Below are positions 1-11,563 of a DNA stretch of 24,246 nt, in pieces. The notes under the pieces were generated by a model, which saw only the letters and a list, made by a program, of their open reading frames with translations, had not been told where the DNA came from and did no database searches. Numbering within the stretch: the stretch's first letter is position 1; each line of letters opens with the position of its first letter. Origin of the DNA: a virus; the IMG/VR virus record IMGVR_UViG_3300042945_000926, positions 1-24,246 of that record; one strand, 5' to 3'. The position numbers were made by a program, and so were the translations under genes.

Positions 1-458
1 GGGATGACATAGAATGTGTTTACCTCCTAAGATGGAAAGATATTGAAGATCTTGAATATGGAGATCGAGTTTTTGGATTTGCAGCAAATTTTGCTTTTGG
101 ATCAGTTAAAGCATTTACAAAGGCTATCTATGACCCATATTTATATTTCCTTGGAGAAGAGATCAGTTTGGGACTTAGGCTATCAGTTAAGGGTGTAAAC
201 CTTGTTGCACCACCAGTAAATGCAATTTGGACCAACTATGACAGAGATAATGGGAAAAGAGATTTTCACTGGGTTGACAACCAACTTTGGGGAATTAGAG
301 ATAAGGCTGCAAGAATTAGGCTTAGTCAGTTATTTCGTGGGGAAGATTTAGGTGTTTATGGATTCCAAGATGATATGGAAGAGTATAGAGCGTTGCAGGA
401 AGAAATGGGCCTTGACTTTGAATCAAAAGACTACATTAAGCCAATATATAAAAACTAA
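1..458 (+). CDS. GlcNAc-transferase-like protein (PF11397/GT60 type), C-terminal part, 5' cut by window
   Basis: The reading frame is open from base 3 to the TAA at 456-458, so the start lies upstream of the window. About 151 residues remain. The stretch DPYLYFLGEEISLGLRL followed by a short span and APP is the acceptor-side signature I know from the family of [Skp1]-hydroxyproline N-acetylglucosaminyltransferases (D-P-x-L-x-F-x-GEE-x-x-x-x-RL...P). The catalytic DxD half would be upstream and is not visible. The family transfers GlcNAc from UDP-GlcNAc to hydroxyproline in eukaryotic Skp1. Bacterial and phage members are mostly uncharacterised. A TTG at 168 could be read as a start, but the family motif runs straight across it, so it is not the real one. 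The next gene is a dioxygenase-like protein 34 nt downstream, which suggests that one enzyme modifies a residue and the other glycosylates it. The family call is fairly firm; the substrate is unknown. Confidence 0.7.
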   Translation, partial: DDIECVYLLRWKDIEDLEYGDRVFGFAANFAFGSVKAFTKAIYDPYLYFLGEEISLGLRLSVKGVNLVAPPVNAIWTNYDRDNGKRDFHWVDNQLWGIRDKAARIRLSQLFRGEDLGVYGFQDDMEEYRALQEEMGLDFESKDYIKPIYKN

Positions 459-6420: not shown

Positions 6421-8196
6421 ATGGCAACTAGAATGCAACAGCGCAGAGGAACTGCAGAACAATGGACAGATGCAGATCCAATTTTGGCAGCAGGAGAAAT
6501 TGGATTTGAGACTGATACCAACCAGTTCAAAATTGGCGATGGTGTAAATAACTGGTCTGACCTCTCCTACTTTAAAAACCTAGAAGACCTAGGTGGATCC
6601 CTTGACGATTACGTTCCAGTAACAACTAAGGGACAAGTAAACGGAGTAGCGGAACTTGACTCAACAGGAAATGTTCCACTTTCACAACTTGGAAATCTTA
6701 TCGATGGAGCACCAGAAGCACTTAACACTCTTAATGAACTTGCAGCATCCATTAATGATGATACTAACTTTGTAGCATATGTAACAACACAACTTTCAAA
6801 TAAAGCAAATCTTGCAAGCCCATCACTAACAGGTGTTCCACTTGCACCAACTGCAATACTGACAGATAATTCTACTAAGATTGCTACAACTGCTTTTGTT
6901 AAGGGGCAGGCTTATGGCTTAGCATCAGATATCTCTAATCTTGATATAAGATTAACAGACTCAGAAAATGATATAGACTCATTACAAACAACATCAGCCA
7001 CACTTGTTACAAATGTTGGCCAAGCGCAAACAGATATTAGCACTCTAGAAGCAACAACAATCAGCCAAGCAGGAAGAATTTCTGACGTAGAGTCAGACGT
7101 TGTAACTTTGCAGTCAAGCGCTGCAACTGGTGCATCTGACATTACTGCTCTAGAAACTCTAACTGCCTCTCACACTGGAAGCATCACTTCATTGGAATCA
7201 GATGTTACAGAAGCAAAAACAGATATTACAGCACTTGAGTCTACCTCTGCTACTTTAGTATCAGATGTTTCTGGACTAGAGACTTTAACAACATCTCATT
7301 CTGGATCTATTGCAACATTGGAGTCAGACGTTACAACAGCAAAGTCTGACATTGACACGCTGCAGGGTGATCTCGATACAGCAGAAGCAACTCTTGCAAC
7401 TACAACTTCAAACTTTAATTCACATGATGCAAAGACAACAACAGTTCACGGAATTGCAGATACTGCAGCCCTTGCAACTAAGACTTATGCAGATACCGCA
7501 GGAACAAATGCAATCGCCTCAGCAAATACATACGCTGACTCAGTAGTTGCTTCAAAGGCACCTTTGGCTTCACCAGCACTTACTGGAACTCCAACTGCCC
7601 CAACTGCATCAGCAGGAACCAACACAACACAGATTGCAACAACAGCATTTGTTAAATCAGAAGTTGACGCAGTAATCGCAGCAGCACCAGGAGCGCTAAA
7701 CACTCTTGATGAACTAGCAGCAGCACTTGGAGATGACGCAAACTTTGCTTCAACAGTTACAACTAACCTTGCATCTAAAGCACCTCTTGCTTCACCAACA
7801 TTTACAGGAACTGTTGCACTACCTGCAGCATCATCTGTAACACTAAACGGAACTGCACTTTCAGCAACTTTGGCAACAAAGGCAGATAAGACAGCAGCAA
7901 TTTCGTCAAAGTCAGGAGCCTATACAATTGCATCAGCAGATGTTAACTCAATTATTGAGTTTAACTCAGGTTCAGGGGCATCCTTTACGATTCCATCTGA
8001 TAACTCTTTCTGGCCAGATGGACAAAGACTTGAAGTTCTTCAGGTTTCAGGAGGACAAGTGACTATTGCAGGCGCAGCAGGGGTAACAGTAAATGGAACT
8101 CCTACTACCAAGACAAGAACAACTTGGTCTGGTGCAACAATTATTAAGCGAGCAGCAAATACATTCGTTGTCGTTGGAGATCTAGCGTCTTCATAA
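6421..8196 (+). CDS. Long tail fibre / receptor-binding protein with Mtd-like N-terminus
   Basis: 591 residues, aaggag ribosome site. Residues 1-51 (QQRRGTAEQWTDADPILAAGEIGFETDTNQFKIGDG) are the N-terminal module found in many phage fibres and named after major tropism determinant. Residues 97-112 and 423-437 hold the GAPEALNTLNELAA element. Residues 135-160 and 385-411 carry the LTGxPxAPTA...(T/K)IATTAFV fibre repeat. Residues 170-330 are a coiled-coil array in which TALExxTASHxGSIxxLESDV recurs, a trimeric stalk. The last 95 residues (SGAYTIASADVNSIIEFNS onward) are a beta head widely seen at fibre ends. It is probably the main adsorption fibre or one of two. Repeats like these are prone to recombination, so copy number may vary between relatives. 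Confidence 0.82.
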   Translation: MATRMQQRRGTAEQWTDADPILAAGEIGFETDTNQFKIGDGVNNWSDLSYFKNLEDLGGSLDDYVPVTTKGQVNGVAELDSTGNVPLSQLGNLIDGAPEALNTLNELAASINDDTNFVAYVTTQLSNKANLASPSLTGVPLAPTAILTDNSTKIATTAFVKGQAYGLASDISNLDIRLTDSENDIDSLQTTSATLVTNVGQAQTDISTLEATTISQAGRISDVESDVVTLQSSAATGASDITALETLTASHTGSITSLESDVTEAKTDITALESTSATLVSDVSGLETLTTSHSGSIATLESDVTTAKSDIDTLQGDLDTAEATLATTTSNFNSHDAKTTTVHGIADTAALATKTYADTAGTNAIASANTYADSVVASKAPLASPALTGTPTAPTASAGTNTTQIATTAFVKSEVDAVIAAAPGALNTLDELAAALGDDANFASTVTTNLASKAPLASPTFTGTVALPAASSVTLNGTALSATLATKADKTAAISSKSGAYTIASADVNSIIEFNSGSGASFTIPSDNSFWPDGQRLEVLQVSGGQVTIAGAAGVTVNGTPTTKTRTTWSGATIIKRAANTFVVVGDLASS

Positions 8197-8237: not shown

Positions 8238-9350
8238 ATGGCACTTCAAAAGACTGGCGATAGAGGAATACGCAAGGTAAGCGTTCCAAACCTATCAGGA
8301 ATGACAAGAACCCAATATCAGGCTGCACTGTCTTCTAATGGCCTAACCTATACTGAAACATCTACTACTACTGGTGACGCTGGACTTGACCAAAAGGTTA
8401 TTTCTCAAGGAACTGCAGCAGGAACCGTTGTAAACATTGGGTCGAACGTTAGCGTAAACTACTATCAGTATGTATACTCTGGATTTTCTCACTATGCAGG
8501 GTTTACACACTACGCAGGATTCTACCACGGATTTTACCATGGTTTCACACACTACGCAGGCTTCTATCATGGGTTTTATCACGGGTTTACACACTATGCA
8601 GGCTTTGCACACTACGCAGGGTTCTATCATGGGTTCTACCATGGCTTCGCACACTACTCAGCGTTCTACCATGGATTCTACCATGGCTTTACACACTATG
8701 CAGGGTTTACACACTACGCAGGATTCTACCACGGATTTACTCACTCATACGGAGGATTTTCCACGGTTGCAATGAACGGTATCTATCCTGGATATCCTGG
8801 ATTCATCTCTCTTGGAGCAACTACAGGAGTTCACACAGTTGACGGTATCAAGCAAGCACAAGAGATTCAGGTAGGAGACAAACTTTACTCTCTTGATATT
8901 GCAAACCTAGATCCAACAATTCAAGGAATTCCAAACTTTAGTTCTACCGAAGAAGACTTTCAGGCTCTTGGAGTAGTTGAAACAACGGTTGTATCTGTTT
9001 CATCTTATGTTTCAGATACCGCAATAGTCATTAATGGTGACATCTTTACTGCGCCACACTTAATTCTTGCAAAAGGACCAGATGGAGTTGTTTCTTTTGT
9101 AAGATCTGAAAACATTACAGAAGAGTATCACGTATGGTCTCTAGAAGAAAGAGATTGGATCCCAGTAACAGATGTTGAGGTAATTGCTTACATCGAACAA
9201 GTTTATACAATTAACTGCGAACCTTATGATATCTTCTTTACACAGAACATGTTGACTCACGATTCTATCTCATGGCTAACAGACAATGAGGGTAATGCAA
9301 TTCTTGATGAAGATGGCAACCCAATTTACCCTAACGGCTCTGGCAACTAA
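8238..9350 (+). CDS. PASTA-like / HYAGF-YHGF repeat / Hint-domain virion protein
   Basis: 370 residues in three parts. Residues 12-74 (VSVPNLSGMTRTQYQAAL ... ISQGTAAGTVVNIGSNVSV) read as a PASTA domain, which in bacterial kinases and PBPs binds cell-wall muropeptides or beta-lactams. Residues 84-174 are a low-complexity array of (S/T/A)HYAGF and YHGF units. Residues 191-343 match a Hint (hedgehog/intein) fold: Ser191 falls exactly where the catalytic Cys1 would be, 12 residues before the DG pair at 202-203, then the VGDKLYS block, TAPH (271-274) as the TxxH block B, and a terminal LTHDS (339-343) in place of the usual VHN-(C/S/T). Twenty-seven further residues follow. Whether it self-cleaves is unknown, as Ser1 and terminal Asp are atypical. 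It is last in the tail block and starts ATG-GCA, so it is probably a surface-exposed virion protein. Confidence 0.72.
   Translation: MALQKTGDRGIRKVSVPNLSGMTRTQYQAALSSNGLTYTETSTTTGDAGLDQKVISQGTAAGTVVNIGSNVSVNYYQYVYSGFSHYAGFTHYAGFYHGFYHGFTHYAGFYHGFYHGFTHYAGFAHYAGFYHGFYHGFAHYSAFYHGFYHGFTHYAGFTHYAGFYHGFTHSYGGFSTVAMNGIYPGYPGFISLGATTGVHTVDGIKQAQEIQVGDKLYSLDIANLDPTIQGIPNFSSTEEDFQALGVVETTVVSVSSYVSDTAIVINGDIFTAPHLILAKGPDGVVSFVRSENITEEYHVWSLEERDWIPVTDVEVIAYIEQVYTINCEPYDIFFTQNMLTHDSISWLTDNEGNAILDEDGNPIYPNGSGN
8487..8759 (+). repeat. Tandem HYAGF / YHGF coding repeat
   Basis: This stretch encodes eight six-residue units ((S/T/A)HYAGF, one of them HYSAF), nine YHGF units and a final THSYGGF. They are ordered mostly as one or two HYAGF units followed by two YHGF units. 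Synonymous third positions vary between copies (tatcatggg, taccacgga, taccatggc), so the copies are not recent exact duplications and the peptide pattern has been kept. Confidence 0.95.
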
Positions 9351-9365: not shown

Positions 9366-10100
9366 ATGAGAAAACCAGGAAGAGGATATTTTCCTGAAGA
9401 ATGGGACGATCCCTACACTATTCCAGATGCAACTATAGCATTGAATAAGGACAGAGTAGGAAAATCCACTCCATATTCAATTAGTCCTCAAATTGCAGAG
9501 TTTACAAAACAATTCAGCGAAAAGGCACAAATGCCTTCAGAAGAAGTGATGAGAGAAATCCATGACGAGTCCTGGTATGACCACTATTTAAGAGATGAAA
9601 GTTATTTTATTCCAGAAAATAGATGGGCACACGAAGTTCAAAGGGGACCAGTGCATGTAAAAGATAATCTGTATGCAATTTATTTAGATGCAGATGTATA
9701 CATAAAGGATTATCCAAGGATATATCGGGGTAAAAATAAAGATGTTCAAGCAATAGGGTATAATTTTATTAGCAGAACTTTATATAGGTATATTAAAGAT
9801 AGGCCAGAGCAATTAGACTTTGTAGACTATGGAGATCTAGCAAATTCTGAATGGTGTGCAGCAACGTATAACTGGGTAGTTAGATGGCTACCTAAAAACA
9901 ACTGTAGGCTAACATTTTACAGCACAGAAGATATAGAAAAGGCATTACATTGCAAAGTTGAGAGATTTGTGATAGAATGTAATGATGAGATGGTAAATGT
10001 AGAAGTGCCTGTTTATTTTAAATCAGATTTAAAGTTAAGCATGCCTTACATTAAGCATGATTCTTTAATAATGTATATGGAGGTCGAAGAAATTGAGTAA
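9366..10100 (+). CDS. Protein of unknown function
   Basis: 244 residues, 15 nt after the Hint gene stop, with a modest agagaag ribosome site. I recognise no family. The N-terminus is charged and proline-rich (GRGYFPEEWDDPYTIPDATIA). The central part has aromatic-rich segments (DESWYDHYLRDESYFIPENRWAHEV, YAIYLDADVYIKDYPRIYRG) and the C-terminus looks like beta strands (RFVIECNDEMVNVEVPVYFKSD). There are no membrane spans or signal peptide. Its end overlaps the next gene by 8 nt, so it is made together with the paired paralogues downstream. A virion or assembly role is possible from location alone. Confidence 0.55.
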   Translation: MRKPGRGYFPEEWDDPYTIPDATIALNKDRVGKSTPYSISPQIAEFTKQFSEKAQMPSEEVMREIHDESWYDHYLRDESYFIPENRWAHEVQRGPVHVKDNLYAIYLDADVYIKDYPRIYRGKNKDVQAIGYNFISRTLYRYIKDRPEQLDFVDYGDLANSEWCAATYNWVVRWLPKNNCRLTFYSTEDIEKALHCKVERFVIECNDEMVNVEVPVYFKSDLKLSMPYIKHDSLIMYMEVEEIE

Positions 10101-10800
10101 AAAAATTACGTTCATTCCAAAAAATGAATATGTTATTGAATATGCTCCAAAGCCAGAGCCAATGTCAAAGAACTTGCCAACTTGGTGGAGAAAGTCACAG
10201 CCGTATGCTGGTGGAGAAAAAAAGGTAATTAATGGGCAGTATAACGAAACAGTAAAAAAATGTCCAGGAATACTTGACTTACTAACTACTGGGTATTTAC
10301 TAAAGACACCATGCGACATATACATTGATGCAACTGGAGATAAAGTAGAGTTTCAGGTTCAAGAACTTCACAGGCAGTCAATCTCTATGCACACAAGAGA
10401 TCAGATTGAATCCTGGGATTTTGATCGTGAATTATTTATGGATGATATCTTTAGGATTCATCCTATGTGGGTAGTTGGAACTCCAAAAGGATACAGCACA
10501 CTCTTTATTCATCCATCCTTTTATAATAACCTACCATTTGAAACAGTCCCAGCAATTATTGATACAGATATGTATGTTTCTGATGGTCCATTTTCTTTTA
10601 GGGTAAAAAGAGGTTTTAAAGGAGTAATTGAGGCTGGAACACCAATTGTTCAATGTATACCTTACAAAAGAGAAGAATGGTCAGCGGATATACTAGAAAA
10701 GCCTTTGCTTAAAGTTTTTAGCACACTTGGAGTTAAGTTAAAGTATAAGTTTGGTGGAGCATACAAGGCTCTAATGTGGGAAAAGAAGGTTTTTAAATAA
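10093..10800 (+). CDS. Tandem paralogue 1, unknown function (DUF6065-like pattern)
   Basis: 235 residues from a TTG start, chosen because GGAGG lies 9 nt upstream (10079-10083) and the next Met codon would lose the conserved beginning. Recognisable segments are NLPTWWRK, VKKCPGILDLLTTGYLL, GYSTLFIHPSFYNNLPF, then ID.D...., GVIEAGTPIVQCIPYKREEW. Each aligns with the next gene (NLPKWWKD, HCMPYFDALTAGYHY, GWSLMITHPVGRWDLPF, GVIPEGTPIMSMIPIKRANW), so the two are paralogues. The pattern reminds me of phage proteins grouped as DUF6065; that assignment is from memory. The fold looks like a beta barrel or jelly roll. It overlaps the upstream gene by 8 nt and ends 1 nt before its paralogue. Confidence 0.6.
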   Translation: MSKKITFIPKNEYVIEYAPKPEPMSKNLPTWWRKSQPYAGGEKKVINGQYNETVKKCPGILDLLTTGYLLKTPCDIYIDATGDKVEFQVQELHRQSISMHTRDQIESWDFDRELFMDDIFRIHPMWVVGTPKGYSTLFIHPSFYNNLPFETVPAIIDTDMYVSDGPFSFRVKRGFKGVIEAGTPIVQCIPYKREEWSADILEKPLLKVFSTLGVKLKYKFGGAYKALMWEKKVFK

Positions 10801-10801
10801 G

Positions 10802-11563
10802 ATGGACCTACACTCAGATAAATATGCTAACCCTGAACCTTTAGAAGATTTAACTGTAAAGTTCTGGACTTCAACCGCATATATTGAAACAACACCACCA
10901 CCAGTTCCAGCAATCACAAATTTGCCAAAGTGGTGGAAAGACAGACCTCTGTATCAAAAAAATGACGATATTCAAAAATTAGGAATTATGAATAACCGTG
11001 GTGCAGACTCTGCAGCAATCAGTGTAAAGCATTGCATGCCATATTTTGATGCATTAACTGCAGGTTATCATTACAGTTTGCCTACCACAATCACAGTTAA
11101 AAAAACAGATGATCCAAACAGGCCAGATATAACTTGGGATGAAGATCGTCCAAGACCAGTAGAGATGCGTGGACACATTGAGTTGCCAGTTCCATCTGGC
11201 TGTTATCCAATTCACTTTGTTTGGGATATGAGATGGGGAACAAAACTTCCAGATGGTTGGTCATTAATGATTACTCATCCAGTTGGAAGATGGGATTTAC
11301 CATTTATAACTATGACTGCTATTCAAGATGCAGACAGGTGGTCTACAAACAACGTGGTTACTTTTTTCCTAAGAAAAGATTTTGAAGGGGTAATTCCAGA
11401 AGGAACCCCAATTATGTCTATGATACCTATTAAAAGAGCAAATTGGCAGATGGAAGTAGATCATAAACTTCAAAATGAAGGCAGTTGGGATCTAGAAAGA
11501 AAAAGAAATTATATCTATGGCTTCTACAAGAAGCATCGTTGGATTAGAAAAAAATACAGATAA
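10802..11563 (+). CDS. Tandem paralogue 2, unknown function (DUF6065-like pattern)
   Basis: 253 residues, starting one base after the previous stop. It shares the whole conserved frame of the upstream gene, including the tryptophan pair after NLP, the ALTAGY helix, the LPF turn, and EGTPI with the IPIKRANW ending. It differs by an insertion around KTDDPNRPDITWDEDRPRP and a longer basic tail rich in Lys, Arg and Trp. Two diverged copies kept side by side suggest a heteromer or two related substrates. No catalytic motif is obvious. It is followed 10 nt later by an oxygenase-like gene with its own ribosome site. Confidence 0.6.
   Translation: MDLHSDKYANPEPLEDLTVKFWTSTAYIETTPPPVPAITNLPKWWKDRPLYQKNDDIQKLGIMNNRGADSAAISVKHCMPYFDALTAGYHYSLPTTITVKKTDDPNRPDITWDEDRPRPVEMRGHIELPVPSGCYPIHFVWDMRWGTKLPDGWSLMITHPVGRWDLPFITMTAIQDADRWSTNNVVTFFLRKDFEGVIPEGTPIMSMIPIKRANWQMEVDHKLQNEGSWDLERKRNYIYGFYKKHRWIRKKYR

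Follow-up and report, generated by a model that had tools for sequence, protein, structure and literature searches.

The window, meaning the whole stretch of viral DNA that was analysed (IMG/VR record IMGVR_UViG_3300042945_000926; 24,246 nucleotides), carries on its plus strand, at positions 8238 to 9350, an ORF with an ATG start codon which encodes a protein of 370 amino acids, the stop codon not counted. Three parts follow one another in this protein, namely a PASTA domain at residues 14-73 (positions 8277-8456), a low-complexity tract of aromatic residues, His and Gly at residues 84-174 (8487-8759), and a predicted Hint domain extending from Ser191 to Asp342 (8808-9263). Tract and Hint domain are connected by a linker of residues 175-190 (8760-8807), which ends at the predicted scissile bond Ile190-Ser191; this end is taken from the VIA alignment with the RecA mini-intein 2in0, in which residue 191 of the model is aligned to intein residue 1. 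The Hint domain is followed by a C-terminal tail of 28 residues (343-370; 9264-9347). The positions marked by conservation counts within the Hint domain are Ser191 (8808-8810), which corresponds to intein position 1, Thr271-x-x-His274 of block B (9048-9059), and Asp342 (9261-9263), which replaces the terminal Asn of inteins. A preliminary description of the locus had proposed the same three parts with borders at residues 12-74, 84-174, and 191-343, which differ from the present ones by at most two residues; the trio is real, as judged from Pfam, unit counts, and predicted fold, and it is conserved in relatives. Its assignment to the tail region is supported by gene position, the gene lying directly behind a tail-fibre gene (6421-8196, plus strand), which was recognized by an Mtd_N domain in Pfam and by matches to tail-fibre PHROGs. 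Downstream, a gene for a protein of 244 residues without Pfam or PHROG match is found at 9366-10100 (plus strand).

The PASTA domain is matched by PF03793 with an E value of 6.8e-8 and 32.8 bits, above the curated cut-off of 23.2, and residues 11-80 of the AlphaFold2 model have ten-residue mean pLDDT values of 84-90. When a profile of 15 PASTA heads (A3) was compared with the PDB, no chain was found at E 0.01, and the best PDB match of the window protein by phmmer reached only E 0.24. A PD-T4-6 defence match was set aside, as it maps onto the PASTA region.

The recount of the tract gave eight six-residue units of the form [STA]HY[AS][GA]F and nine YHGF units, exactly as first described, and only seven types of amino acids (18 His, 18 Tyr, 18 Gly, 18 Phe, 10 Ala, 6 Thr, and 3 Ser). 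At the DNA level, the array is detected by Tandem Repeats Finder with a score of 370 and a period of 102. Because all 85 nucleotide differences among the 36 pairs of YHGF units are synonymous, these units are held alike by selection at the protein level; the six-residue units are kept less strictly, with 46 synonymous differences and 42 in amino-acid-changing codons over 28 pairs. Disorder is predicted for the tract since the pLDDT of the AlphaFold2 model is below 50 over residues 82-189. Within the family described below, the slot before the Hint domain is filled by HYAGF/YHGF, FFPPFFP, AFGAFG, FTPFGVFSF, PVIIAEP, PAFNEP, NPYYNPY, and other repeats. The HYAGF/YHGF tract of the preliminary description is present, with its YHGF units under selection, and represents one of several tract types. 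The pH or metal sensing and the likeness to squid beak proteins proposed there for the tract are speculative. In the family, F/Y/W/H account for a median of 27% of the 62 residues ending eight before Ser1, a fixed stretch that misses longer and shorter tracts, as compared with 7.5% in the heads and 11.7% in the Hint domains; the median of charged residues in the same stretch is 1.6%, versus 8.4% and 20%, respectively. Aromatic is the commonest but not the sole flavour of the tract, because in 43 of 94 members F/Y/W/H make up less than 25% of the measured stretch, the PVII- and Pro-rich types being non-aromatic.

Two degenerate DNA patterns of the array, searched over viral contigs, returned 26 and 17 stretches. 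Seven of these lie outside the family, as seen upon inspection of 10 loci, and the remainder belong, by name, to contigs with a family member. An unrelated protein of 164 residues with a single YHGFYHGF is identical in six environmental contigs (L215, L223, L224, L225, L235, and L239), and a frame of 89 residues is the other match outside the family. The notion of a widespread motif was rejected; besides this unrelated protein and the one coincidental frame, the array patterns were detected only in contigs with members of the PASTA type.

For residues 191-342, a Hint domain is predicted mainly from structure. By sequence, PF14890 is matched with an E value of 0.034 and 14.4 bits, below its cut-off of 35.8; of the two domains for which the preliminary description had suggested profile searches, PASTA was thus recovered by Pfam, and Hint, being subthreshold there, by the predicted fold. 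A match to PHROG 38766 (“virion structural protein”) covers residues 176-342 with E 3.7e-5, and the best PDB sequence match to the Hint region is 2lwy (E 1.5e-4). The ten-residue mean pLDDT values of the AlphaFold2 model are 79-95 over residues 191-340, except for 63 at residues 221-230. The top PDB rows of a Foldseek search with this model are bacterial intein-like (BIL) domains and inteins, followed lower down by Hedgehog, with 6y75 at E 2.8e-8; the same structure is the top row of VIA-align (Z 18.2, 1.8 Å, 135 residues). Residues 191..342 align from first to last with residues 1..440 of 2in0, the Mycobacterium tuberculosis RecA mini-intein, with Z 17.1. A relative with an FN3 head and an FFPP tract (L081) was modelled in the same way. 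Its top VIA row has Z 18.4, and in the row of 2in0 (Z 17.0) residues 256..408 are aligned to 1..440; Ser256 and Asp408 are invariant in alignment A6. The Hint fold is, therefore, predicted in two members with different heads, from models built on shallow alignments of 16 and 20 sequences for the window protein and L081, respectively; the VIA rows for the window model spanned residues 187-345, and the lists were filled by Hint and, in the case of L081, FN3. An ordinary beta-helix fibre, the outcome that would have removed the modular reading, is ruled out for this region by the AlphaFold2 model together with the fold search.

With the window protein as query, 22 related loci were found and aligned. 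Besides the window, they include 12 distinct complete proteins with PASTA head, HYAGF/YHGF tract, and Hint domain in the same order; L021 lacks the 5′ end, L022 breaks off within the tract, and the Hint domain of L023 is degenerate. Searches with the Hint module only yielded 225 relatives and a wider profile 249, of which 80 each were kept for further analysis. Of the 97 distinct ORFs with I.CEP.D in these loci, 94 were retained once ORFs lacking their 3′ end and ORFs forming part of another one had been removed; outside this set are L022, which is cut short, and seven modules without the exact motif, including L023. For a motif-free recount, 101 distinct C-terminal stretches of 200 residues, closed at the 3′ end, were taken from 208 loci, and Pfam and PHROG scans were done for 87 proteins with a complete 5′ end. 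The Hint module thus constitutes the C-terminal end of at least 94 distinct environmental phage proteins; the median identity between pairs of the 94 is 38%, and clustering at 60% gives 26 groups. The module is C-terminal in 94 of 94, and it is followed by 2 to 28 residues (median 5), the window protein having the longest tail. A polymorphic toxin, in which a Hint domain precedes the toxin, was rejected, as nothing follows the Hint domain of the window protein. No relative was confirmed in contigs of cellular genomes, which is weak evidence given the narrow patterns used.

Three slots are evident from these proteins: an exchangeable head, an interchangeable low-complexity spacer, usually with few charges and many aromatic residues or prolines, and a C-terminal Hint module starting from a nearly invariant Ser. 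Up to an E value of 0.01, Pfam matches were obtained for fn3 in 38, PASTA in 33, collagen in 6, and PF14890 in 18 of the 87 proteins (best E for PF14890, 7.5e-5), and PHROG 38766 was matched by 29. PASTA is one option for the head and not the core of the family, because fn3 is found at least as often; the wall binding supposed in the preliminary description is accordingly conjectural. Direct evidence that heads have been exchanged comes from L048 and L055, whose Hint modules are 91% identical and preceded in both by a PVII-type tract; the head of L048 is of the fn3 type (E 0.0025, below the curated cut-off), that of L055 consists of two PASTA domains (E 8.1e-17), and the Hint module of L055 has a terminal Asn.

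Among named phages, no relative of the whole window protein was found at E values up to 10. The Hint module as query led to 23 records (19 Erwinia, 2 Dickeya, 1 Alcaligenes, and 1 Salmonella), a second such query to Yersinia fHe-Yen9-02 (E 0.07) and Vibrio CKB-S2 (E 0.8), and a third to 3 Erwinia, 1 Yersinia, and one unannotated uncultured record; the named-phage records examined are those of AD1, fHe-Yen9-02, and CKB-S2 (annotation only). The proteins of Dickeya AD1 (L129:3005-4444) and Yersinia fHe-Yen9-02 (L130:2996-4438), designated P0002 and P0003, are recovered by a profile built without them (E 3.2e-17 and 7.5e-18) and match PHROG 38766 over their full length (E 1.3e-255 and 2e-200). 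They resemble the window protein in their homologous C-terminal Hint domain, are annotated as virion structural proteins, and lie near genes annotated as tail fiber protein; unlike the window protein, they carry collagen-like repeats in front of the Hint domain and have kept Cys1, T-x-x-H, and a terminal His-Asn, followed by T or V. This is an apparently complete Cys1/T-x-x-H/His-Asn set.

The linkage to a tail-fibre gene is a feature of the family. In 75 of 86 loci, the start of the Hint gene is preceded, at a distance of -1 to 44 nt, by the end of a gene resembling 6421-8196; many of these matches are limited to an N- or C-terminal portion of the 6421-8196 protein, and in the other 11 loci no such gene was found directly upstream (the 86 loci being those of the 87 proteins with complete 5′ end minus one with less than 400 nt upstream). 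The downstream gene 9366-10100 has a relative in 17 of 17 loci of the HYAGF type and in 0 of 77 others (blastp, E 1e-4, flanks available), so that its product is a candidate partner specific to the HYAGF-type tract or head. For T2-type phages, gp38 is described as a separate receptor-binding protein at the fibre tip with glycine-rich motifs (PMC12892980). Such adhesins are marked by a poly-glycine II sandwich fold, for which the tract of the window protein, modelled with pLDDT below 50, would be the candidate. Here too, a separate protein with repetitive motifs accompanies a fibre gene, and it would, like gp38, make contact with the host, while its domains differ from those of gp38. It could be argued from this likeness that solely head and tract matter, forming a tip adhesin with repeat-supported loops on which the Hint domain is an incidental passenger; this is very improbable, as the Hint domain is the sole module common to all members while heads and tracts change. 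As to the host, the best named matches of the portal protein are from Streptomyces phages (47.9% over 99%) and that of the ribonucleotide reductase is from Actinomycetia phage DSL-LC01 (62.5%). An actinobacterial host is suggested by these matches, and a PASTA domain that binds the wall would be well suited to such a host. In Yaboi and DSL-LC01, two actinobacterial phages to which the portal and reductase searches had led, no Hint module was seen in the stretches covered (49 of 131 kb and 99 of 129 kb, respectively).

Conservation was evaluated for 96 non-redundant modules, composed of the 94 environmental ones and the two proteins of cultured phages. Since Ser191 and the block-B motif were absent from the search patterns, their columns are unbiased, whereas parts of INCEPYD and FFT..L..D were contained in the patterns and the respective columns are biased. 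Position 1 is Ser in 94 of the 96, that is, in all environmental modules, and Cys in the two jumbo-phage proteins. The block-B His is present in 96 of 96, as is the Ser/Thr of this block, and Thr196, Gly213, and Asp214 are kept in 93, 96, and 95 modules, respectively. In the motif-free recount of 101 stretches, position 1 was Ser in 99, Trp in one (L023), and cut short in one; the block-B His was found in 100, with Tyr in L023, and the last Hint residue was Asp in 97 and Asn in 4. The neighbours of Ser191 vary, residue 190 being K in 38, Y in 31, E in 6, and others in the rest, and residue 192 being V, I, or L.

A different picture is obtained for the other half of the intein active site. The position of the terminal Asn is occupied by Asp in 90 and by Asn in 6 of the 96 modules, with Asp in 90 of the 94 environmental ones; the penultimate residue is His in 39, Tyr in 28, Phe in 26, and Met in 1 of the 94, so that 55 are without His. 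The window protein ends its Hint domain with His-Asp (341-342), and His-Asn occurs in none of the 94. The position of the block-F His is Asp in 96 of 96, a biased count because the set was defined by CEPxD or an equivalent. With terminal Asn, penultimate His, and block-F His lost, part of the intein chemistry is gone, and because this is the Asn-cyclisation half, no splicing is expected. Class 1 inteins are characterized by a terminal Asn, a nucleophile at +1, and a C-extein; in place of these, there are Asp342, a short tail, and an unconserved +1 residue, which is S in 36, G in 22, T in 9, R in 8, A in 7, and others in the remainder of the 94 (Ser in the window protein). A mini-intein that still splices, or the relic of one, would account for the whole intein fold, spaced as in inteins from position 1 through to the final residue, and for the ends of the AD1 and fHe-Yen9-02 relatives, in which His-Asn is followed by T or V. 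The C-terminal flank with a median of 5 residues, the lack of conservation at +1, and the Asp in 90 of 94 speak so strongly against it that we give it hardly any weight. Class 3 inteins have a W-C-T motif with Trp two residues after the block-B His and Cys at the block-F position of D107 in gp41-1 (PMC7664689). The window protein has Ile276 at the first of these positions, where no Trp is among the residues listed for the 96 modules, and Thr324 at the second, aligned to gp41-1 D107, where Ser is found in 79 and Thr in 12 of the 96 and no Cys is listed; as the motif is absent, class 3 was rejected. The window protein has a single Cys, Cys327, three residues past the class 3 block-F position. 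This residue was rejected as a nucleophile, as Val stands there in the gp41-1 alignment and four relatives with Ser1 intact have Thr or Val instead; of the seven modules outside the motif set, four have Thr or Val for the Cys of INCEPYD.

In its overall pattern, with the residues of N-terminal cleavage kept and those of splicing lost, the module resembles what has been described for B-type BIL domains, which possess all intein motifs except the C-terminal one and carry out N-terminal cleavage (PMC7765530). Read from its sequence, the window protein has the nucleophile Ser191 and Thr271-x-x-His274 and is without the His-Asn of the C-terminal motif; the Hint fold and the occurrence in variable multidomain proteins are further likenesses. 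Unlike B-type BIL domains, the family has Ser for Cys at position 1 and an INCEPYD motif, and its members are phage proteins that carry low-complexity tracts and are encoded behind tail-fibre-like genes. His-Asn, the hallmark of A-type BIL domains, is present only in P0002 and P0003. Among solved BIL structures, the fold is similar to Tetrahymena thermophila BUBL1 BIL2 (6y75, 6tmm) and to the domain of Clostridium thermocellum (2lwy), 6y75 being closest; 6y75 is titled C1A-N143A, from which Cys and Asn follow as the natural ends, unlike Ser and Asp in the window protein. The Hog-Hint domain of Hedgehog (1at0; fold Z 17.2) shares the C-terminal place of the Hint domain behind a cargo and differs in that the window protein has only 28 residues after the Hint domain, Ser1, and a bacterial virus as source. 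The phage Hint domains reported in PMC5526547, PMC5259590, PMC3556154, and PMC8790156 are located in reductase-like, helicase, or terminase proteins.

From the observed architecture, conservation, exchange, and gene order, we infer catalysis, a place on the virion, and contact with the host. The reading that we favour, with about an even chance of being right, is that of an adhesin linked to the tail fibre, from which a single acyl shift at Ser191 would release, or transfer, head and sticky tract. The protein would act as adhesin or decoration linked to the tail fibre, a role deduced from gene position and domain types. The head would touch the host surface, which in the case of PASTA might be actinobacterial peptidoglycan, and the spacer would be a flexible tether able to associate with itself. 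Once folded, the Hint domain would run one single-turnover reaction, in which Ser191, aided by Thr271 and His274, would shift the peptide bond Ile190-Ser191 to an ester. This ester would be resolved by water or by a nucleophile on a neighbour, and the 40.8 kDa chain would be divided into a free head with tract of 21 kDa and a Hint end of 20 kDa. The Hint domain would thus behave as a B-type BIL domain in Hedgehog topology, with N-terminal cargo and C-terminal processing domain. Autoprocessing, which the preliminary description had supposed to govern the exposure of the tract, appears plausible from the retained residues of the N-terminal cleavage step, with control of exposure as only one of several outcomes. 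A more specific version, in which the ester of Ser1 would be taken up not by water but by a nucleophile of the adjacent tail fibre or of the host wall, is an unlikely one on present evidence; head and tract would then be covalently mounted, the Hint domain would leave, and exchange of heads and tracts before a fixed fastener would alter the target of adhesion.

Ser is a weaker nucleophile than Cys, and position 1 is never Cys in the 94, which, together with the loss of part of the intein chemistry, is unfavourable to a reaction at Ser191; moreover, a structural role of the invariant Ser and His is conceivable. The main rival assumes a catalytically dead Hint domain that serves as C-terminal cap, dock, or folding chaperone, with Ser191 and His274 in a structural or binding role and the chain remaining whole. 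We regard it as doubtful but in need of serious consideration. The replacement of the terminal Asn by Asp in 90 of 94 and the presence of the penultimate His in only 39 of 94 would be in line with it, and cap-like chaperones encoded behind tail fibres are known (PMC10579305). It is less easily reconciled with the invariance of Ser1 and of the block-B Ser/Thr-x-x-His in 94 modules that have a median identity of 38% and differ in the neighbours of Ser1. The natural variant L023 (5001-5816), with PASTA head, short tract, and a Hint profile fit of E 2.8e-26, has a bearing on both. Ser1, Thr196, VGD, the block-B His, and CEPYD are lost together, as would be expected if these residues formed one active site, and the joint loss of Ser1 and block B argues against the dead domain. 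That the loss of the motifs is tolerated is in favour of a dead domain, and L023 counts against autoprocessing, as one phage keeps the protein without cleavage site; no second Hint copy was seen in its contig of 58.8 kb.

Besides release of an adhesin, cleavage at Ser191 might serve assembly. The Hint domain could aid trimerisation or docking of the fibre-linked protein and then be removed by its own cleavage, in the manner of tail-spike intramolecular chaperones, which are lost by autoproteolysis (PMC10579305). The C-terminal position, the kept cleavage residues, and the gene order right after a fibre-like gene are compatible with such a transient chaperone. We consider it improbable, since no known chaperone domain is tied to the Hint fold by the analysis.

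PASTA, fn3, Hint, and BIL domains are already known, and the names PASTA, fn3, and Hint exist for proteins of uncultured phages in BFVD. The entry A0A6J5NY54 of an uncultured Caudovirales phage (“PASTA_pknB”) is matched over 361 alignment columns with E 5e-19, so members of the family are already in databases; A0A6J7WKC1 (“Hint domain”) is another BFVD entry of this kind, and both names look automatic. In the open-licence PMC literature, no paper was recognized as describing the combination, a tail-fibre-linked family, or the Ser1/Asp-ending form.

To our knowledge, the natural role of BIL-type Hint domains is largely open. The family offers Hint modules in a constant position, for the most part in genes that follow a tail-fibre-like gene, and whatever precedes the modules in the protein can be exchanged; this role thereby becomes testable with small proteins. 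It also provides a set of natural low-complexity tethers of differing chemistry in the same slot, which would be useful for studying such tracts on virions, and points to a fastening or release reaction of one turnover that may be part of phage adhesion.

Some further observations concern gene content. In 20 chosen long contigs, the Hint module occurs once in 15 and twice in 5, and two Hint-tailed genes lie about 10-12 kb apart in some phages (L077/L085, L136/L141, and L135/L142); L077 and L085 differ in their heads, and their Hint modules are 64% identical. At 10093-11563 of the window, two adjoining proteins match PHROG 7084 of unknown function (E 1.2e-44 and 3.3e-26), and relatives of these proteins flank many Hint loci, including loci with other heads. 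A minus-strand gene at 1942-2532, situated among plus-strand genes, encodes a protein with a lysozyme-like SLT domain (PF18896, E 5.1e-16).
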